Part shown: piece by piece, positions 3 through 10,295 of the stretch | Numbering within the stretch: the first letter of the stretch is position 1 | How the letters are laid out: every line of letters begins with the position of its first letter | Source of the DNA: Halothiobacillaceae bacterium | GTDB lineage: Bacteria > Pseudomonadota > Gammaproteobacteria > Halothiobacillales > Halothiobacillaceae | Length of the DNA stretch: 10,295 nt | Reading direction: 5' to 3' | Assembly (NCBI GenBank): GCA_011380105.1 | Contig: DRZW01000002.1 | Coordinates: 1 to 10,295, forward strand | Position numbers and translations under genes: made by a program | The notes under the pieces: model-generated | What the model saw: only the letters and a program-made list of their open reading frames with translations | Databases searched by the model: none | Told to the model about the DNA's origin: nothing

Positions 3-458
3 TGTGGACATACCTACCATCCGGGATTTTACCGCGGGCAGGTTCTGCTAATCAGAATGAATCGGCAAACGAACAGCACATTGCCAAACGATTTTTCCCT
101 CATCCAGCAAGCGGCTATGGCCGAGGGGTTGATTGACCGCACCTTCTGGTTCTGCCCACCAGAACATCTCAATTATTTCAACCCACAGGGGCTCAAACGG
201 CTAGTCGAGGCCTGCGGCTGGCAGGTTCAAGATGCCTTTTCGGACTTCCCGATCGATTGGTTTTTACTCAACGAGCATGCCAATTATGTCACTGACCGTG
301 CCCGCGGCGCAGAAGCACACGCGGCGCGGGAGCGAATCGAATCGCTCATGGTTCAACGCGATCCCGAGGGTACGCTCAACATTTACCGGGAGCTATTAGC
401 CATGGGCATGGGGCGGAATATCACATTGGTTGTGACTCCCATGGAGAGCAGGCGATGA
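3..458 (+). CDS. Class I SAM-dependent methyltransferase, C-terminal part (5' truncated)
   Basis: The reading frame is open from the window edge (codons from base 3) through the stop TGA at 456-458. The first ATG, at 57, is therefore probably internal and the gene begins outside the window. The visible ~151 residues look like the C-terminal half of a Methyltransf_23-type sugar or small-molecule methyltransferase. A VPND-like loop appears as LPNDFS, followed by FWFCPPEHLNYFNPQGLKRL, the characteristic PPEHLxYF helix start, and then a GW-V segment. The SAM-binding glycine motif must lie upstream and cannot be checked. The stop overlaps the pseI start by four bases (ATGA), so the two are probably translationally coupled. 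That points to O- or N-methylation of the nonulosonic acid or of a linked glycan. The substrate is not deducible. Confidence 0.82.
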   Translation, partial: CGHTYHPGFYRGQVLLIRMNRQTNSTLPNDFSLIQQAAMAEGLIDRTFWFCPPEHLNYFNPQGLKRLVEACGWQVQDAFSDFPIDWFLLNEHANYVTDRARGAEAHAARERIESLMVQRDPEGTLNIYRELLAMGMGRNITLVVTPMESRR

Positions 459-1510
459 AAAACGACTTCTGTCAGCTTTTCGATCAAGAATGGTCACAAC
501 CGCCCTGGCTGATTGCTGAATTATCAGCGAACCACAACCAATCGCTTGATCGAGCCCTAGCTCTGGTCGATGCGGCTGCTAATGCCGGCGCTCATGCCGT
601 CAAGGTTCAGACCTTCCGGCCCGAATGGATCACACTCGACTCGGATCGACCGGAATTTTTGATCCAAAATAAGTCAAGTCCCTGGTTTGGCCGCCGATTG
701 TTCGATCTATATTCTGAAGCAGCTCTGCCCTTGGATTGGCATGAACCGATCTTTAAGCGTGCTTTGAAAAACAATATCCTCGCCTTCAGCGCCCCTTTCT
801 CGTTAGAGGCGGTGGATTTTTTAGAATCGATCGACTGCCCAGCCTATAAGATCGCATCATTCGAATGCGTTGACATTCCGCTGATCAAGAAAGCCGCAGC
901 AACCGGTAAACCGGTTATCATTTCTACCGGTATGGCAACCGCAGCCGAGATAGACGAAGCTGTTCGTGCGGTACGCGACTTTCAAACTCGGGGACCGATG
1001 CTGCTCAAATGTACCTCTAGTTATCCAGCCCCGGTTGAAAACAGCCACTTGGCGACACTAAAAGCCATGCAATCGGCTTGGTCGGCACCAGTCGGTCTAT
1101 CCGACCATTCGCTCTCACCAGCACCGGCACTAGTGGCAACCACGCTGGGGGCGCGCCTGATTGAAAAACACCTGACACTAGCCCGTGCAGATGGCGGTTC
1201 GGATGCTGCTTTTTCTCTGGAGCCAGCAGAATTCACCGCCTTGGCTCAATTGATTAAAGAAGCTCATGCAGCCATCGGCACTGTGCAATTCGGCGGGACA
1301 ACAGAAGCTGAACGCCACGCTCGAAAACGACGTCGCTCCCTTTATATCAATCAGGATATGCAGGCAGGCGAAATCATCACAGAAAAAACCATTCGCTCGG
1401 TACGACCCGGCTACGGCCTGCCAACAAGGTACTACCATGAGGTTCTGGGCAAACGTGTGCGCCATAATCTCTCGAAGGGAACGCCGTTGTCATGGATCGA
1501 TATCGAGTAA
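455..1510 (+). CDS. pseI: Pseudaminic acid synthase PseI (NeuB family, with SAF domain)
   Basis: This 351-residue enzyme condenses 2,4-diacylamino-2,4,6-trideoxy-L-altropyranose with phosphoenolpyruvate to give pseudaminic acid or a derivative; it is cytoplasmic and metal dependent. The NeuB TIM barrel spans about residues 15-285: AELSANHNQ at 21-29, KVQTF at 50-54, KIASFE at 132-137, STGMA at 157-161 and KCTSSYPAP at 185-193. H218 (LSDHS) and H239 (EKHLTL) match the two manganese-binding histidines of NeuB. SPWFGRRLFDLY and DAAFSLEP are typical of PseI rather than NeuB or LegI. An antifreeze-like SAF domain follows (about 290-351). The ATG overlaps the methyltransferase stop, and a GGAG at 443-446 lies 8 bases upstream of it. 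The next gene begins 19 bases downstream. Length is normal for the family. The acyl group accepted at the amino position cannot be read from the sequence. Confidence 0.95.
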   Translation: MKNDFCQLFDQEWSQPPWLIAELSANHNQSLDRALALVDAAANAGAHAVKVQTFRPEWITLDSDRPEFLIQNKSSPWFGRRLFDLYSEAALPLDWHEPIFKRALKNNILAFSAPFSLEAVDFLESIDCPAYKIASFECVDIPLIKKAAATGKPVIISTGMATAAEIDEAVRAVRDFQTRGPMLLKCTSSYPAPVENSHLATLKAMQSAWSAPVGLSDHSLSPAPALVATTLGARLIEKHLTLARADGGSDAAFSLEPAEFTALAQLIKEAHAAIGTVQFGGTTEAERHARKRRRSLYINQDMQAGEIITEKTIRSVRPGYGLPTRYYHEVLGKRVRHNLSKGTPLSWIDIE

Positions 1511-1518
1511 AAATTGAG

Positions 1519-1522
1519 AGGA
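1519..1522 (+). promoter_or_regulatory. Ribosome binding site fixing the GTG start of the ComA-ComB fusion
   Basis: AGGA within a longer GAGAGGAAG run (1516-1524) sits 7 bases before the GTG at 1530. The first ATG in frame (M25, in the GWTMVLD segment) would cut into the ComA N-terminus, so the GTG is the better start. Confidence 0.75.
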
Positions 1523-1529
1523 AGCACCT

Positions 1530-3011
1530 GTGTCATACCTTCTACATACCGTATTTGGCCTTAAAACCAATCCGCCCGCTACACGACGCGCCGGATGGAC
1601 CATGGTGCTGGATGCTGGTCTGGGCCTGGCGGCCAGCCGCGACCTGATTGCGACTGCCCGGGAGCAAATCGATCTGATCAAGCTCGCTTACGGTTCTTCT
1701 GCGTTCTACCCTGAAGCTATCCTGCGCGAAAAGCTTAAGTTGTTCCGCGACCATGGGCTGCTAGTCTGCCCCGGAGGAACCCTGCTAGAGGCCGCTGTTC
1801 AGCGTAACCGGGTAAACGCTTTATTCGACGAATTGTCTTCGCTTGGTTTTAATGCCATCGAGGTATCAAACGGCATCGAAGGCCGCATTGACCGAGCCTG
1901 TAAAATAGACCTGATCCACGAGGCGTGCGCAAGAGGGTTTCGTGTCTTTTCTGAGGTGGGCCGCAAGCTACCACAGGAGGACGCAACCCTTTCTTATCGC
2001 GACCGGGTTGAAGAAATCCGAGCCGATCTCAAGGCGGGAGCGGAGAAGGTCATTATGGAATCACGCGAATCCGGTACTGTCGGTATTTTCGATGCAGAGG
2101 GCCAAATCAATAGTGAACTGGCCTATGAGCTGTTCCAGCACATTGATCCTGAGGACGTCATTTGGGAGGCCCCTAGACGCCCTCAGCAGATCTGGTTACT
2201 CCACCAACTCGGCCCTGAAGCCAATATCGGTAATGTTTCAACCGACGATGTGCTAAGCCTTGCCTCACTCCGCTATGGCCTCCGTGCTGACACATTACGG
2301 GATCACGCGCCACAACGCATTATCACCTATCTTGAATTAGGCGTACCCGGTGCCCTACGAGCACGAAAGCGCGGGGATGTAGTGGTCGTGGTAGACGCGC
2401 TCCGGGCTAGCTCAACCATCCTGCAATGTCTTGCTAACGGGGCTGAGAGCGTTACACCTGTACTCGGTGCAGATGAGCTAAGCGGGGATGTCACGCTAGC
2501 CGAACGCGGCGGTGCCCGCCTACCGGGCGTGGATTTCTCCAACAGCCCGACGGAGATTCTGGGAGAGAGATTTGATGGCAAGCATGTTGTTATCAGTTCG
2601 ACAAATGGAACCGAGTGCATACGAGTGGCCGGAGGCGAAGATAACCCCGTGTTGATCGGCACAGTCAACAACGCTCGCGCTGCGGCTCGGGCGGCTGAAT
2701 CGATCGCAAGATCGGAAAACCGTTCGATCACCCTGCTAGCCGCAGGCCGCAACAACCAACCTGCCATCGAGGACCGGATTGGTGTCACCTTGATACTGAA
2801 GCATCTGGAAAGCCCCTGGATTCGAGGGACGCTCAATCCGTACTATTCAGACAATCTTGCACGCGACTTCCTATCCTCGGACAGCGGTATGAATCTGGTA
2901 TCACTGGGATACGGTTCAGATGTGCTGCATTGTGCCGAAGCGGATCGTTTCGATTTTGTCGGCCGCTTTGATGGAACCACCATTCGCCGCTTTGCAAAAA
3001 CTTTGGCATGA
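1530..3011 (+). CDS. comA-comB: Fused phosphosulfolactate synthase (ComA) and 2-phosphosulfolactate phosphatase (ComB)
   Basis: This 493-residue protein has two complete enzyme domains. Residues about 1-257 are a ComA/YitD-type phosphosulfolactate synthase, which adds sulfite to PEP to give (R)-phosphosulfolactate. Visible family blocks are VLDAGLGL (26-33), LIKLAYGSS (49-57), PGGTLLE (81-87), IEVSNG (110-115), SEVGRK (141-146), AEKVIMESRESGTVGI (171-186), IWEAP (211-215) and LRYGLRADT (247-255). Residues about 266-493 are ComB, which dephosphorylates the product to sulfolactate. Its blocks are VVVDALRASSTIL (286-298), ANGAESVTPV (302-311), NSPTEI (338-343), STNGTE (357-362), LLAAGRNN (402-409) and IEDRIGVTLIL (413-423). 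Length is about the sum of separate ComA (~250) and ComB (~230) proteins. Known roles are coenzyme M biosynthesis in methanogens and sulfolactate in Bacillus spores; neither fits here. Its place between pseI and an ATP-grasp gene suggests a sulfonated acyl precursor for the nonulosonic acid. The domains are recognised with confidence; the exact nucleophile is assumed from family. Confidence 0.9.
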   Translation: MSYLLHTVFGLKTNPPATRRAGWTMVLDAGLGLAASRDLIATAREQIDLIKLAYGSSAFYPEAILREKLKLFRDHGLLVCPGGTLLEAAVQRNRVNALFDELSSLGFNAIEVSNGIEGRIDRACKIDLIHEACARGFRVFSEVGRKLPQEDATLSYRDRVEEIRADLKAGAEKVIMESRESGTVGIFDAEGQINSELAYELFQHIDPEDVIWEAPRRPQQIWLLHQLGPEANIGNVSTDDVLSLASLRYGLRADTLRDHAPQRIITYLELGVPGALRARKRGDVVVVVDALRASSTILQCLANGAESVTPVLGADELSGDVTLAERGGARLPGVDFSNSPTEILGERFDGKHVVISSTNGTECIRVAGGEDNPVLIGTVNNARAAARAAESIARSENRSITLLAAGRNNQPAIEDRIGVTLILKHLESPWIRGTLNPYYSDNLARDFLSSDSGMNLVSLGYGSDVLHCAEADRFDFVGRFDGTTIRRFAKTLA

Positions 3012-4225
3012 AACAAAAACTACTGATCATCGGAGCCGGTCGGGAGCAAGTTCCAGCCATAGAACGTGCTCGAGCGCTCGGTTTAACAGTGCTGACAACC
3101 GATATAAATCCCGCCGCTCCGGGGGCTGCTCTGGCTGATCATTTTTATCAGGCTAGCACGGATGATGCACCTGGCAATATCAATATCGCCAGACGGGCAG
3201 GAATCAATGGGGTCATGACGCTTTCATCTGAGACAGCTGTGCCCACAGTGGCAGCGGTTGCCAAAGACCTGGCTCTACCCGCGCTGTCGCCGCGCAGTGC
3301 CATGCTGGCAACCGATAAACTGGCAATGAAAGACGCTTTTCTACGTCACGGAGTGCCCACCTCGCCTTATCGCCGCATTCGTGACATTAACGAGGCACAT
3401 GATTTCACCGTCGAGCATGGATTTCCTGTTGTTATCAAACCCGCAGTAAACTCAGGGCAGCGCGGTACCAGCCGAGTCGATGACTACACCGGTCTTAAAT
3501 CAGCCGTGCGCAAAGCCTTTGCACACGCCCCGGACCAACGAGTTTTAATTGAGGTGTTTGTACCCGGCCCTGAAATCAATGTCACCGCCGTGGTTGAGGA
3601 CACCCAATCACACCTGATCTCCATCAGTGAGCGTGTGACCGCCGCCCCACCCCATTTTGGCATTGCGGTTGCACATGCCGCCCCTGCCCACCTTGGCACC
3701 GAGGACCAGGCAGCATTACGCACCGCCGTACAACGCGCTACTGAAGCGATCGAGCTTCGCGATGGCATCGTTTACCCGCAATTTATTATCGGCCCTCAGG
3801 GGCCTTGCCTATTAGAAATTGCCGCACGTATTCCAGGCGGGTTTATGCGCGAGGTGGCACTTGGGGTATCAGGCATTGATTTGATAGACGTAGCCATCGC
3901 ACAAGCATTAGGTGAGCGCGAGGTACTTAAACGTACCACCCAGCATGACATCGTCGATGGTTTGGTTGTGCGTTTTTTTACCGCCCTCGACGCTGATCGT
4001 CTCAAATCCCGCCCTGATAAGCAACGCCTAGCAGCGGTTGCAGCGATGCCGGGCATCCAAGCAGTACATTGGCAGCTTGATCGAGCAGACCCCATTCCAA
4101 CCTTGGCACATTCCGGCGCTCGTTTCGCAGCCATCATCGCCACAGGTGAGAATCGCGAACAAGCCTGGGCACGCGCTGAAGCCGCCAGCAATTATCTTCT
4201 TGGTGGGTCTGATTCAAGTGCCTGA
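3008..4225 (+). CDS. ATP-grasp carboxylate-amine ligase-like protein (candidate acyl ligase of the nonulosonate pathway)
   Basis: This 405-residue ATP-grasp protein has a Rossmann-like pre-ATP-grasp domain (LLIIGAGREQVPAIERA, 5-21; acidic TTD at 30-32). Next come the DK of ATDKLAMKDAFLRHGVP (D103-K104) and the ATP-binding strand and glycine loop VVIKPAVNSGQRGTSRV (141-157, K144). The IEVFVPGPEINVTAVVED block (181-198) and the magnesium-binding LLEIAARIPGG (268-278, E270) complete the ATP-grasp core. A C-terminal alpha/beta domain (about 312-400) resembles that of L-amino-acid ligases and PurK/CPS-like members. The family couples a carboxylate to an amine through an acyl phosphate. The ATG overlaps the comA-comB stop by four bases with no clear Shine-Dalgarno, so translation probably depends on coupling. 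The 3' end overlaps convergent pseG by 34 bases. I infer that it may amidate the 4-amino sugar with sulfolactate or a related acid in place of PseH. Other possibilities are an amino-acid ligase acting on the finished sugar, or unrelated use. Confidence 0.85.
   Translation: MKQKLLIIGAGREQVPAIERARALGLTVLTTDINPAAPGAALADHFYQASTDDAPGNINIARRAGINGVMTLSSETAVPTVAAVAKDLALPALSPRSAMLATDKLAMKDAFLRHGVPTSPYRRIRDINEAHDFTVEHGFPVVIKPAVNSGQRGTSRVDDYTGLKSAVRKAFAHAPDQRVLIEVFVPGPEINVTAVVEDTQSHLISISERVTAAPPHFGIAVAHAAPAHLGTEDQAALRTAVQRATEAIELRDGIVYPQFIIGPQGPCLLEIAARIPGGFMREVALGVSGIDLIDVAIAQALGEREVLKRTTQHDIVDGLVVRFFTALDADRLKSRPDKQRLAAVAAMPGIQAVHWQLDRADPIPTLAHSGARFAAIIATGENREQAWARAEAASNYLLGGSDSSA
4192..4225. other. 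Tail-to-tail coding overlap of the ATP-grasp gene and pseG
   Basis: The last 34 bases of the plus-strand ATP-grasp gene are also the last coding bases of pseG on the minus strand. No room remains for a conventional terminator hairpin between the two operons, and I see no hairpin with a T-run at the junction. Both transcripts probably extend into the opposite gene. Confidence 0.9.
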
Positions 4226-5217
4226 ATAATCCGATCGGCACCGAGCCCATCGACCTCGGCGGGGCCGATAGCGTGCCGCCGGCGAGATTCATCGGCGCTC
4301 GCCATAAGCTGACTGATACTATCCGCGGCCCGCTCGACCACATCCGGGTCATCAATCCACCCCAAGTCGAATGCCATACCCAATTGCGCCCAAGCAACAG
4401 CCTGTTCACGCTGATTTTCCACCAGCGAGACAACTAGAAACGGAATGCCTAATGCGGCAAGCTCAAAGGTTGTTGTTCCGCCAGCAACCAAAGCCGCACC
4501 AGCCTGACAAATCAATGGCTGCATCTGGGGCGGGTTGACATAAAGCCGGAGGCGTTCGGGGTAATCCCGCGCTAGGCGTTGGACTAAAGACAGGCCGGTG
4601 TTCTCTGCGGTGGTGACCACATCGATGGACAGAGTGGAAAACTGGTCTAACAGCGCGGGAAGTAGCCGGGCGGAAGCGCCAAAATCATCACCCCCTCCAA
4701 AAGTGACGAACAAACGTGGATTCTCAGAGAAAGGAAGGTATGGCTGCTGGCAAGGTTGATGGAACTCGGTACGCAAAACCGCAAAAGCCGGGCCAAATAA
4801 ACAGCGTGTACGACTACAGCCAGAAGGCGGGGACAACCCTGGCCGAATATTGACTAACCAATCCGGCTCCCCGAGCCAGTAAGAACGATGGGTGAAAGTG
4901 AGCCAAGGAACCCCCTGAGCAGCCAGCCAATTAGCCCAGTCCGCATCCAGATTTGGATGATCAACAATCAGACGATCGGCCCGATTGAGTAATGATCTTA
5001 ACCTTCGCCATTCTTCTTTTCTTGGCGCATCGATATCCAGGATTTCAACGTACCCAATTCCCTTTGGCAAACGCGCACTCACCGCCTGAGCAGGGCCGCG
5101 CAGCAACAAAAAAGTCGTCCAGCCCCGGCGCTGTGCTGTCTCCGCTAATACCCGACAGCGATTGAGGTGACCAAACCCCCACCTAGGTGCTCCATGGGCA
5201 ACCAAAACGAGTCGCAT
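4192..5217 (-). CDS. pseG: UDP-2,4-diacylamino-2,4,6-trideoxy-altrose hydrolase PseG, divergent
   Basis: This 341-residue GT-B-fold protein should hydrolyse the UDP-activated diacylamino altrose to the free sugar used by PseI. The GFGHLNRC motif (14-21) keeps the histidine equivalent to catalytic H17 of Campylobacter PseG. IVDHP (84-88) and the GT28-like C-terminal signatures VTFGGGDD (171-178) and AGGTTTFELAALGIPF (245-260) with NQ at 268-269 are clear. Two conserved acidic spots are altered. By ungapped alignment with the Campylobacter protein as I recall it, the Asp of the N-terminal R-x-D motif is H8, and the DD of the mid-protein SFDD segment is T109-H110. It is the last gene of pseBCFG, beginning 5 bases after the pseF stop. 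The ATG is chosen because the N-terminus aligns there, although its AAGGAG lies only one base upstream. Function as PseG is likely; the substrate acyl group may differ. Confidence 0.87.
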   Translation of the reverse strand: MRLVLVAHGAPRWGFGHLNRCRVLAETAQRRGWTTFLLLRGPAQAVSARLPKGIGYVEILDIDAPRKEEWRRLRSLLNRADRLIVDHPNLDADWANWLAAQGVPWLTFTHRSYWLGEPDWLVNIRPGLSPPSGCSRTRCLFGPAFAVLRTEFHQPCQQPYLPFSENPRLFVTFGGGDDFGASARLLPALLDQFSTLSIDVVTTAENTGLSLVQRLARDYPERLRLYVNPPQMQPLICQAGAALVAGGTTTFELAALGIPFLVVSLVENQREQAVAWAQLGMAFDLGWIDDPDVVERAADSISQLMASADESRRRHAIGPAEVDGLGADRIIQALESDPPRR

Positions 5218-5218
5218 G

Positions 5219-5224
5219 CTCCTT
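5219..5224 (-). promoter_or_regulatory. Shine-Dalgarno of pseG with unusually short spacing
   Basis: A perfect AAGGAG (reading the minus strand) ends one base before the pseG ATG at 5217 and overlaps the pseF stop codon. Normal spacing is 5-9 bases. The next possible start in frame, a TTG at codon 5, would be 13 bases away and would remove the conserved first strand. Re-initiation by ribosomes finishing pseF could compensate. Confidence 0.6.
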
Positions 5225-5926
5225 AAACTTCTTTTCTGAGCAGATATTGGAACATCGCCTCGGCACGAATCCAGTCATCCTCATCATCTATATCCTGCAC
5301 TAGATAGTGAGGCAAAATCACTGGGAAGGTATCCGGATGAATAAAGGGCTGATCATGAACAACTCCAGCCAGATCAGGCCGGATAAAATAGAACTGACCG
5401 GCATCGTGATACATCACAGGCAAATCCTGGGAACGCGCATTCATGACGGCAGGAGAAGGCGGGATAATATGGCCATTCGAATCCAAAGTAAACCCCCGCT
5501 GAGGTGGATAAGCGAATGTTGTGACAGCCATAGCCCGTTCAGGCCGTGTCTGATCATTCAGCCAACTCTTTAAACTGGCAGCAAGCCGGCGGGCTGTCAC
5601 TAAAGGCGCTGTCGGATAAAGAAATAAAGCATAGGTTATCCGCTCACCCTGGTCGATAAAATATCGCAGAGCATGGTGCAACACCGGCCGGGTACCAACT
5701 CGGTCATCGGCGAGACTGCTCGGCCGGAGAAAAGGGATCTCTGCACCATATTGTTCGGCCAAGCTTGCAAGCTCAGGATCATCCGTGGAGACGATGATCC
5801 GATCAAAGCAGCCGCTTTCGCGCGCCGCCTCAATTGACCAAGCGATCATCGGCTTGCCACAAAACTCACGGATGTTTTTACGGGGGATGCGTTTACTCCC
5901 ACCCCGCGCCGGAATCACGGCCAGCC

Positions 5927-5930
<4 letters not shown>
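5223..5930 (-). CDS. pseF: Pseudaminic acid cytidylyltransferase PseF
   Basis: This 235-residue CMP-sugar synthetase transfers CMP from CTP to the nonulosonic acid, giving the activated donor for flagellin glycosylation. The N-terminal nucleotide-binding loop IPARGGSKRIPRKNI (6-20) is intact, followed by STDDPE (48-53), FLRPSSLADD (67-76), LYPTAPL (104-110) and DAGQFYFI (176-183). An acidic C-terminal QDIDDEDDW (212-220) carries the metal-binding aspartates. MYHDAGQFY and the HYLVQDID ending are typical of PseF rather than NeuA. The length is normal. The ATG overlaps the pseC stop by four bases (ATGA, 5927-5930), with GAGG inside the pseC end (5938-5941) 7 bases upstream of it. Cytoplasmic. 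Confidence 0.95.
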
Positions 5931-8076
<2,146 letters not shown>

Positions 8077-8081
8077 TCACC

Positions 8082-8097
8082 TGGCCTGTTTTTTGCA
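8082..8097 (+). promoter_or_regulatory. Sigma-54 (RpoN) -24/-12 promoter for maf
   Basis: TGGCCTG, four T residues and TTGCA match the RpoN consensus TGGCACG-N4-TTGCA at all but two positions. The essential GG (8083-8084) and GC (8095-8096) have the exact 10-base spacing. Transcription would start near 8107-8108, giving a leader of about 113 bases before maf. The site lies just upstream of the pseB start, so bound RpoN polymerase could affect divergent pseB transcription. I cannot confirm an enhancer site for a FleQ/FlrC-type activator. Confidence 0.75.
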
Positions 8098-8208
8098 TTA
8101 ATACACGAACACCGAAAATAATATTTTGAGCCTGCTGCTAACCCATAAACTACCGCAATCGCGTTAGAGTAGGAAATATTCGCTAACATTATCGACAGCT
8201 AAATCAAT

Positions 8209-8220: not shown

Positions 8221-10295
8221 ATGAGCGAAGAGCAAACTGAAAAAGCCCATCAGGTCATCGAGGACCAAGACTACGAATGGTTGCAAACCAATCAAGGTGA
8301 ATGGGTGATCGCCTCGCTCAATGCACGTCACTTTAGTGGCGGTCATAAACACCCCAGCAGCAGTCAACAAAGTCACGCGCTCTACATCCTTGCACGTCAT
8401 TTCGGCGAACAACTGCACCAGCAAGACCGGCTGTATGTTGTTATCGGCAGCGATTCGGGACACTTGATCCGCTTTGTACGCCAGCACAAAACCAACCTGC
8501 CACGCGGTAGTCGCTGGATTTTCATTGAGCCTGCATCGATTTATAACGCACTGCTTCAAAAAACCGATATTTCTGAACAATTAGACGAATATATCCACCT
8601 AATCACTCCTGATCAGTGGGAGGAAACATCCACCCTGTTGCAAATATCGGGCTATTTTAAGATTGATGGCGTAATCCTAAAACGCTCACTGGCCTGCATG
8701 GATGGGGCTGATCCGGAATATGACCGGTTAAGTGAAGAATTTGATCGTATTCTGACCAGCGCTCAGTTCTACCATGTTGCCCATTTGAATCAGGCACATT
8801 TTATTCAGTCGCAGTTACTCTGCGCGCCGAACTTCAATGCCAGTGTGACGCATCTAAAAAACTGTTTTGCGGGGAAAACAGTCGTTGTAATTGGCGGCGG
8901 GCCTTCTTTAGATGGACAAATTGACTGGATCAAACAACATCGTAACCAGTTGTTTCTAATCGCAGTATCGCGTGTCAGCAGGCGCCTACAACAAGATGAA
9001 ATTGTGCCCGACATCATCACCACCGTCGACCCTAACCCCATTAGTTTGACCGTTAGCCGTGAGATGTTTCAATTCCCCGAATCGACCGTGCTGGTCTGTG
9101 GCAACCATGCCTATCCGACGATAACCAACCGCTGGCCACATACCATTTTCTATACTGGCCGCAGGGTGCCATGGAGCACACCGGCCGACCATGAAGATCT
9201 AGAAGACATTCCGCCCAGTCATTTTGCCGGCCCGACTGTCACCCACATGTCGGTACAACTAGCTCACCTCATGGGGTTTGAACGCATTATTCTCTGTGGT
9301 CTGGATTTATGCCATGCCCCTGATGGAAACAGCCATGCTAGCGGTAGCGATAATGCTGATGCCGGGCCGTTACTGGATTTTTCCGCCATTGGCGTCGAGA
9401 CCAACAACGGAGATAAAGCTTGGACCAGCCCGGATTATTTTGCCGGAATCAAAAGCATGGAAAATTTAGCGTCCCTTTACGCCAACCGCTGTAGGTTAAT
9501 TAACCCCGCCGAACATGCCGCGGTAATTGAGGGCGTGGAGCACATCCCATTATCTGAGCTTAAGCTCGATCCCAACCCCCTCGACAGGCAACGGTATGAC
9601 CAATTAGTAGCCGAGGCTGGTCAGAAAGAAAGTCTGGCAAAGCTTAAATTATTAAAACAACAGGCAGAGCAAATTCTCTCGCAGATGCACAAAGTGATTA
9701 ATCTGGCGCAACTTGGGCTGGAATCAAATCAGGCATATTTCAACTTGGTCAACCCCGAACGCCAACGCATACACAAACGGCGCATGCGCGCTGTCGACCG
9801 GATGTTAAATGGCCGCTATCAACAGGCAGCGAGCCTCGCTCGGCGAGCCGCCAAGCGTGCCATTGCCAGAACAGATTTACCGCACGATTTTTTTGATCTG
9901 GACAAAAAACAAGCCGAGAAACTGGCTAATGAATATTACGATGCGATCCGTCGGGAGGCAAAAAAGCTGCTAGAGCCGCTGGCGTTAATGATTGAACGCA
10001 CCGAGACTCGTTTACTTGAACAAGACAGCAAAACGCCCAACAGCACGTTGATTGAACGCTACCTGGAATTCAACGAGCCTGAACGTGGTTTTTGGCTGCA
10101 GCAAAACCGCGGAGCCAGCGAAAATCAAGTATCCAAACTGCAAGAACAGTACCAGTGTGTTATTGACCAGCTGGTTGCCGAAATGCGAGCACGACAAAAA
10201 GCCAAACGCCGCCCTAAGTCATCACTCAAACTGGTAGAGCGTCAATTTTCTTACAAAAATGCTGATGCCTTGCAGCAACTGGCGAACACACTACA
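8221..10295 (+). CDS. maf: Motility-associated factor Maf, flagellin nonulosonate transferase (3' truncated)
   Basis: The frame stays open from ATG 8221 to the window edge: 691 codons with no stop, so the C-terminus is missing. The N-terminal ~190 residues form the Maf N-terminal region (VVIGSDSGHLI, 73-83). About residues 195-400 are the DUF115/MAF_flag10 (MptE-like, GT-A-like) domain: VVVIGGGPSLDG (221-232), DIITTVDPNP (264-273), AGPTVTHMSVQLA, and the GLDLCHAPDG stretch (from 360) with D362 in the conserved G-x-D-L position. Beyond about 440 the protein is helical and rich in Gln, Arg, Lys and Glu. Maf proteins move CMP-activated pseudaminic or legionaminic acid onto Ser/Thr of flagellin before export. 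Divergence from pseBCFG and its own sigma-54 promoter fit that role. Family identity is secure; the particular donor sugar is inferred from the neighbouring genes. Confidence 0.92.
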   Translation, partial: MSEEQTEKAHQVIEDQDYEWLQTNQGEWVIASLNARHFSGGHKHPSSSQQSHALYILARHFGEQLHQQDRLYVVIGSDSGHLIRFVRQHKTNLPRGSRWIFIEPASIYNALLQKTDISEQLDEYIHLITPDQWEETSTLLQISGYFKIDGVILKRSLACMDGADPEYDRLSEEFDRILTSAQFYHVAHLNQAHFIQSQLLCAPNFNASVTHLKNCFAGKTVVVIGGGPSLDGQIDWIKQHRNQLFLIAVSRVSRRLQQDEIVPDIITTVDPNPISLTVSREMFQFPESTVLVCGNHAYPTITNRWPHTIFYTGRRVPWSTPADHEDLEDIPPSHFAGPTVTHMSVQLAHLMGFERIILCGLDLCHAPDGNSHASGSDNADAGPLLDFSAIGVETNNGDKAWTSPDYFAGIKSMENLASLYANRCRLINPAEHAAVIEGVEHIPLSELKLDPNPLDRQRYDQLVAEAGQKESLAKLKLLKQQAEQILSQMHKVINLAQLGLESNQAYFNLVNPERQRIHKRRMRAVDRMLNGRYQQAASLARRAAKRAIARTDLPHDFFDLDKKQAEKLANEYYDAIRREAKKLLEPLALMIERTETRLLEQDSKTPNSTLIERYLEFNEPERGFWLQQNRGASENQVSKLQEQYQCVIDQLVAEMRARQKAKRRPKSSLKLVERQFSYKNADALQQLANTL

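Follow-up and report, generated by a model that had tools for sequence, protein, structure and literature searches.

The window, which is the whole stretch of 10,295 nucleotides analysed here (from contig C14 of assembly G000, 1.19 Mb, 64% complete), carries a gene in which a ComA domain is fused to a ComB domain within a locus for pseudaminic acid (Pse). ComA and ComB are otherwise known from coenzyme M biosynthesis and from the sulfolactate of Bacillus spores. On the forward strand, the end of a methyltransferase gene is followed by pseI, the comA-comB fusion and an ATP-grasp gene. The genes pseG, pseF, pseC and pseB lie on the reverse strand, and a Maf-like gene on the forward strand completes the order (Table 1). 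Both domains of the fusion exceed their Pfam gathering cut-offs. The ComA domain (PF02679) comprises residues 16-254 (approximately 1575-2291; 247.6 bits, cut-off 25.2), and the ComB domain (PF04029) comprises residues 277-480 (approximately 2358-2969; 133.2 bits, cut-off 26.4). The fusion begins 19 bases after the pseI stop, and its TGA shares the motif ATGA (3008-3011) with the ATG of the downstream gene, forming a 4-base overlap. An earlier note on this DNA had described both family blocks in a single polypeptide that directly follows pseI and shares four bases with the downstream gene, and this description is confirmed. In its account of the operon, the order of pseI and the fusion holds, while the identity of the overlapping gene as an ATP-grasp ligase and the absence of PseH had been overlooked.

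Table 1 Genes and features of the window.
Feature	Position	Strand	Basis or remark
S-adenosylmethionine methyltransferase, C-terminal part, truncated by contig end	3..458	+	44% identity to residues 174-294 of the methyltransferase of locus L002
pseI, pseudaminic acid synthase	455..1510	+	TIGR03586, 433.9 bits (cut-off 340.25)
Putative ribosome-binding purine run GAGAGGAAG	1515..1524	+	Sequence reading; precedes the GTG start
ComA-ComB fusion	1530..3011	+	GTG start; 493 amino acids; single uninterrupted open reading frame (ORF)
ATP-grasp carboxylate-amine ligase, predicted sulfolactate:amino-sugar ligase	3008..4225	+	ATP-grasp domain and three-part fold
pseG-like uridine diphosphate (UDP)-sugar hydrolase, diverged	4192..5217	-	TIGR03590, 126.0 bits (below cut-off 153.55)
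pseF, cytidine monophosphate (CMP)-pseudaminic acid synthetase	5223..5930	-	TIGR03584, 268.5 bits (cut-off 205.7)
pseC, 4-aminotransferase (yields free 4-amine)	5927..7075	-	TIGR03588, 542.5 bits (cut-off 423.5)
pseB, inverting UDP-GlcNAc 4,6-dehydratase	7072..8073	-	TIGR03589, 551.7 bits (cut-off 407.75)
Maf/PseD-like flagellin nonulosonate transferase, runs off contig	8221..10293	+	PF01973, 133.9 bits (cut-off 34.6)

Structurally, the modelled folds of the fusion agree with the solved ComA and ComB structures. Of the 37 ComA positions that are invariant over 36 fusions, 31 are identical in both solved enzymes, archaeal and Bacillus. The two solved ComA structures (1qwg and 1u83) have 99 positions in common, 58 of which are retained in the window protein. 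Given the invariant residues and the modelled fold, a degenerate ComA domain is not supported, though it keeps some probability. The Maf/PseD-like protein of the window scores far below the FlagModPseD family NF050051 (47.2 vs 670).

Nine single-ORF fusion loci were read, namely the window, L097 (genome G269), L002 (Thiomicrorhabdus Milos-T2), L003 (Methylomonas WSC-6), L004 (a beta-proteobacterial metagenome-assembled genome), L141 (G487), L142 (G484), L253 (G1014) and L254 (G1019, a 7.2 kb contig). These are all single-ORF fusions recognised in the searches; neighbouring separate ComA and ComB ORFs are left out of the count. The fusion, the ATP-grasp gene and pseI are clustered in all nine, and the ATP-grasp gene always lies directly 3' of the fusion. 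The two overlap by four bases in seven loci and by eight in L002, and a 23-base gap separates them in L253. PseG and PseF are labelled in 9/9 loci, PseC in 8/9 and PseB in 7/9, with no PseB label within the fetched stretch of L253. A methyltransferase of 295 amino acids accompanies seven of the nine fusions (not L097 or L004), and the L002 copy matches Pfam Methyltransf_23. Seven of the nine fetched stretches (not L004 or L254) carry labels for flagellin, FliD or Maf-like genes. Furthermore, ComA-ComB and the ATP-grasp protein diverge in step (r 0.977, 36 pairs). An alignment search, of which the best 80 of at least 578 relatives were kept, places these loci in context. When the 77 other ComA loci were annotated against a small home-made set of references, which names only the genes it includes, none of them showed a PseI/NeuB relative, so ComA in general does not reside at Pse loci. 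Distant PseB- or PseC-like ORFs are seen in three of the 77 (L031, L051, L076).

The fusion has 258 homologues at E<=0.001, and all 120 that are displayed carry both Pfam domains. Together with the same fusion in a same-genus genome made up of a single contig (G269, 87% identity), these relatives indicate that the gene is no assembly accident. The same-genus genomes G158 and G363 are without the fusion. The 120 listed fusions comprise 59 nearest (at least 49% identity) and 61 distant members (P0060-P0120, 42-48% identity), some of the latter being named from Thermoanaerobaculia, Planctomycetota and Rhodanobacteraceae. When 398 sampled Pseudomonadota genomes were queried with the distant fusion P0114, only the fusion of the window was found. 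A single-protein scan of genome contigs returned no relative, and an alignment query was used instead; viral contigs likewise gave no relative. A tblastn search of plasmids gave 31 records, only one of which covers at least 80% of the query, a Legionella lytica record with ComA and ComB as separate features. Indirect linkage was assessed by pairing the 120 listed fusions with 64 of 116 ATP-grasp homologues. In 16 pairs the longest contigs are of identical size (0-3 in the shifted-size control), and 15 of these involve the 59 nearest fusions and share a source. The remaining pair, P0087/P0183, contains a distant fusion and is attributed to chance: its two members come from different sources, and P0183 is part of a large family with two named rows, Actinomycetota and Gaiellaceae.

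The earlier note had placed the fusion inside a Pse operon and had named, as an outcome that would refute its reading, fusions lying mostly away from nonulosonate genes. Among the placed fusions the result favours the note, as all nine are situated in Pse loci. Because the linkage recurs in every placed fusion genome, co-location by chance is rejected.

The classical order of the Pse pathway is PseB-C-H-G-I-F, with PseH acetylating its substrate with acetyl-coenzyme A. A PseH profile built from seven matches detected no PseH-like ORF in the nine fusion loci, the window included (E<=1e-3). Five fusion genomes were also searched whole with the curated PseH family, and none matches it over its cut-off (G000, 64% complete; G269; G369; G370; G371; E<=1e-3). 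G000, G370 and G371 give weak matches (21-28 bits), that of G000 (27.9 bits) being on another contig, while G269 and G369 have no match at all across the whole genome. In G484 and G487, no PseH match was found at E<=1e-10. A PseH hidden elsewhere in the genome was considered, and none over cut-off emerged from the whole-genome searches, in which G000 is 64% complete and G1014 and G1019 lie outside the search.

As a control, 237 genomes of the Methylomonadaceae, the family of Methylomonas WSC-6, were examined, 33 of which carry PseI over cut-off. A gene was scored as PseH-like at E<=1e-10 on the same contig and within 10 kb of PseI. PseH and ATP-grasp are mutually exclusive across the 33 loci: 24 hold a PseH-like gene only, eight an ATP-grasp gene only, and one neither. 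The ATP-grasp profile thus matches 0/24 PseH loci and 8/9 of the remainder, which divide into three with fusion and ATP-grasp, five with ATP-grasp and no fusion, and one (G478) with neither. Fisher's test gives p values that are indicative only, as the genomes are related members of one family: 6.5e-7 for this exclusion, 7.6e-5 if the remote ATP-grasp genes of L215 and L216 are scored negative, 0.0085 on loci outside the building of the ATP-grasp profile, and 0.015 for the fusion against PseH alone. The 13 sequences behind the ATP-grasp profile include six of the eight positive loci (L003 and the five without ComA-ComB), which leaves L141 and L142 as the sole independent positives. The fetched regions span 7 to 20 kb, and ATP-grasp genes lying farther out would escape notice. 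PseG also differs, scoring 119.7-242.6 bits in fusion loci (seven of nine scored) vs 298.8-330.7 bits in PseH loci (four of 24 scored).

The control family shows further variants of these genes. PseG and PseH are themselves often fused in this family, in ORFs of approximately 500 codons; L222, L224 and L225 are examples. At L219 (G478, 6382-8151), the locus without PseH or ATP-grasp, PseG has a C-terminal formyltransferase-like part (PF00551, 26.4 bits, cut-off 26.1), and the product there is perhaps an N-formyl Pse. In L217 (5750-7382) and L220 (7811-9444; assigned by eye), a metallophosphoesterase-like gene stands directly 5' of the ATP-grasp gene, near PseI and the 295-residue methyltransferase. 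It might encode a phosphatase that supplies a different free acid, as ComB would at fusion loci.

Gene content, folds of the domains, conservation of residues, linkage and the exclusion of PseH are all observed, and at this level the ComA-ComB and ATP-grasp cassette stands in for PseH in the flagellar Pse pathway. From this arrangement we infer the individual reactions, the attachment position and the glycan. Judged on sequence, we consider it reasonably probable that ComA-ComB makes 3-sulfolactate and that the ATP-grasp protein couples it to the amine that PseH would acetylate, yielding a pseudaminic acid with an N-sulfolactoyl group that is destined for flagellin. The ComA domain would join sulfite to phosphoenolpyruvate (PEP) to give 2-phospho-3-sulfolactate, which the ComB domain would dephosphorylate to 3-sulfolactate. 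The ATP-grasp ligase would then activate the sulfolactate carboxylate as an acyl phosphate and form an amide bond to the 4-amino group of UDP-4-amino-4,6-dideoxy-AltNAc, the product of PseB and PseC, in place of the PseH step. Subsequently, the diverged PseG would remove UDP, PseI would add PEP, PseF would form the CMP sugar, and the Maf-like protein would transfer the sugar to flagellin. The predicted sugar is a Pse5Ac bearing N-(3-sulfolactoyl), and with it a negatively charged sulfonate, at C7; the methyltransferase of seven loci may O-methylate this sugar. Its computed residue mass is 426.094 Da (oxonium 427.10), or 440.110 Da when O-methylated. This specific mechanism follows from two features combined, the presence of an ATP-grasp ligase and the lack of PseH. 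The dedicated sulfonate building block that the earlier note had suggested is the most economical reading, given the nine Pse loci out of nine and the 31 of 37 invariant ComA positions; it stands at the genomic level, while the sulfolactate product, its transfer to the sugar and the channelling of the intermediate by the fusion, which the note had also suggested, remain predicted.

Several observations weigh against this proposal. The ComA part of the fusion falls below the NCBIfam equivalog TIGR03849 (arch_ComA; 260.4 vs a cut-off of 280), and we therefore use the name ComA-like and not archaeal ComA equivalog; the ComB part falls below the equivalog TIGR00298 (108.7 vs 175.05). In the window protein, 41 of the 99 positions common to 1qwg and 1u83 are altered, including the charged E108, E123, D199, K226 and E245. 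The ATP-grasp fold is common to enzymes with other substrates, and 4dim ties with 3vot. In five of the 33 control loci, ATP-grasp replaces PseH without ComA-ComB, so the ligase alone does not indicate sulfolactate; at L215 and L216, two of the five, more than 5 kb separate it from PseI. The divergence of PseG is graded and in part follows lineage (242.6 bits in L002, 240.7 in L253).

Among the alternatives, the one that survives best, although unlikely, is that the ATP-grasp protein ligates sulfolactate at another position or stage, namely the C5 amine, finished Pse, CMP-Pse or a hydroxyl. Campylobacter carries a di-O-methylglyceroyl amide at C5, for which removal of the acetyl group is thought to be needed first (PMC3068675, in the portion available), and at L148 a separate-gene module adjoins a PIG-L deacetylase gene and NeuC/NeuB, so that the module can serve another amine. 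However, the genes labelled in the nine loci with a fusion include no deacetylase, and the step lost there is acylation of the 4-amine. It is slightly less probable that the nucleophile used by ComA has changed and that the acid supplied is another PEP-derived 2-hydroxy acid, as the altered common positions and the missed strict cut-offs would allow. We regard as very improbable that the ATP-grasp protein attaches an amino acid to the sugar, with sulfolactate used elsewhere, for instance as a cap. The best solved match of the ligase is an L-amino acid ligase, and in the Clostridioides difficile type B flagellin glycan taurine is joined via an Ala-Gly peptide (PMC5207245, as far as that source is available), yet the ATP-grasp gene is coupled to ComA-ComB by four bases and the labelled genes of the loci include no further acyl-transfer gene. 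Least probable of all, with hardly a chance, is free sulfolactate made for another purpose (a metabolite or a coenzyme M-like route) in an operon position due to chance: methanotrophs do have stand-alone ComA genes in quite different, perhaps coenzyme M-like loci, but the placed fusions all lie in Pse loci and the 77 other ComA loci scanned lack PseI or NeuB relatives.

Other arrangements of ComA were also observed. L148 (G516:C181, 3747-11354) contains separate genes for PIG-L, a CMP-transferase-like protein, ComA, ATP-grasp, ComB, a glyoxalase-like protein, NeuC and NeuB, with Maf-like and flagellin genes nearby, and may be a sulfolactate cassette that was assembled a second time, independently, and acts on a deacetylated sugar. 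ComA occurs together with ATP-grasp in L150 and L154, both apparent polysaccharide loci (by eye). In L150 (2410-5890) and L151 (9451-11202), the latter also an apparent polysaccharide locus, a stand-alone ComA lies beside glyoxalase-like and histidine-phosphatase-like genes, with PIG-L and ATP-grasp in L150 (by eye); the histidine-phosphatase-like gene might substitute for ComB. The methanotroph loci L143-L147, L149 and L153 have a stand-alone ComA of approximately 284-300 amino acids beside CoA-transferase-like, MetE-like and lyase-like ORFs (named by eye), and are perhaps coenzyme M-like.

In a broader sense, and with slightly less assurance than for the N-sulfolactoyl proposal itself, we lean towards viewing N-acylation of the Pse precursor as an exchangeable slot, which within a single family is occupied by PseH, by ATP-grasp ligases supplied with dedicated acids, or perhaps by a formyltransferase. 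ComA-ComB with ATP-grasp would be the sulfonate version, giving an N-sulfolactoyl nonulosonate and, for 3-sulfolactate, a new role as a component of surface glycans, and the separate-gene form of L148 would be a second assembly. If true, a C-sulfonate would be added to the nonulosonic acids, 3-sulfolactate would have a biosynthetic use beyond coenzyme M and Bacillus spores, and a Pse pathway running without PseH would be explained. A flagellin sugar residue of 426.094 or 440.110 Da would be expected in bacteria that can be cultivated, Guyparkeria halophila and Methylomonas lenta among them. As a rule for Pse loci without PseH, one would seek a ligase and a gene making the acid for that ligase.

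The earlier note knew of no described role for these enzymes in flagellar glycosylation; in agreement, the open literature (subscription papers being mostly outside this scope) yielded no description of sulfolactate or phosphosulfolactate synthase in Pse or flagellin glycosylation. Compared to the classical Pse pathway of Campylobacter and Helicobacter, the window has PseB, PseC, PseG, PseI, PseF and a Maf-like transferase. PseB, PseC, PseI and PseF exceed their equivalog cut-offs and PseG falls below, whereas PseH is absent and the ComA-ComB fusion and ATP-grasp are found instead. With Methanocaldococcus ComA/ComB and Bacillus YitD, the fusion shares both folds and most family-invariant ComA residues; it differs in being one polypeptide, in lying at a Pse/flagellin locus and in missing the equivalog cut-offs.

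The following sources, cited from the portions available, supply precedents for individual steps. Pse of Campylobacter jejuni NCTC 11168 carries a 5-N-(2,3-di-O-methylglyceroyl) group linked to Cj1295 (PMC3068675). It resembles the predicted sugar in its hydroxy-acid amide on an amine of flagellin Pse and in its methylation, but the acid there is glycerate and not sulfolactate, and the available portion names no ATP-grasp gene; its position at C5 and not C7 counts against our proposal. In Shewanella oneidensis, an organism without a clear PseH, loss of the ATP-grasp gene SO_3265 shifts the flagellin mass (PMC3765264). Its sfmABCDE operon likewise unites NeuB-like, methyltransferase and ATP-grasp genes and is associated with a methylated nonulosonate substituent; in contrast, its five genes do not include ComA or ComB, and in the portion available the outer 236-264 Da moiety is not identified as a sulfonate (PMC3765264). 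The type B flagellin of C. difficile carries a sulfonated peptidylamido-glycan with taurine attached via Ala-Gly to Fuc3N (PMC5207245), and its glycan locus holds an ATP-grasp gene (PMC5207246). Both systems pair a sulfonate, predicted in the case of the window, with an ATP-grasp gene at a flagellin glycan locus, with taurine placed on Fuc3N in the one and sulfolactate predicted on a nonulosonate in the other.
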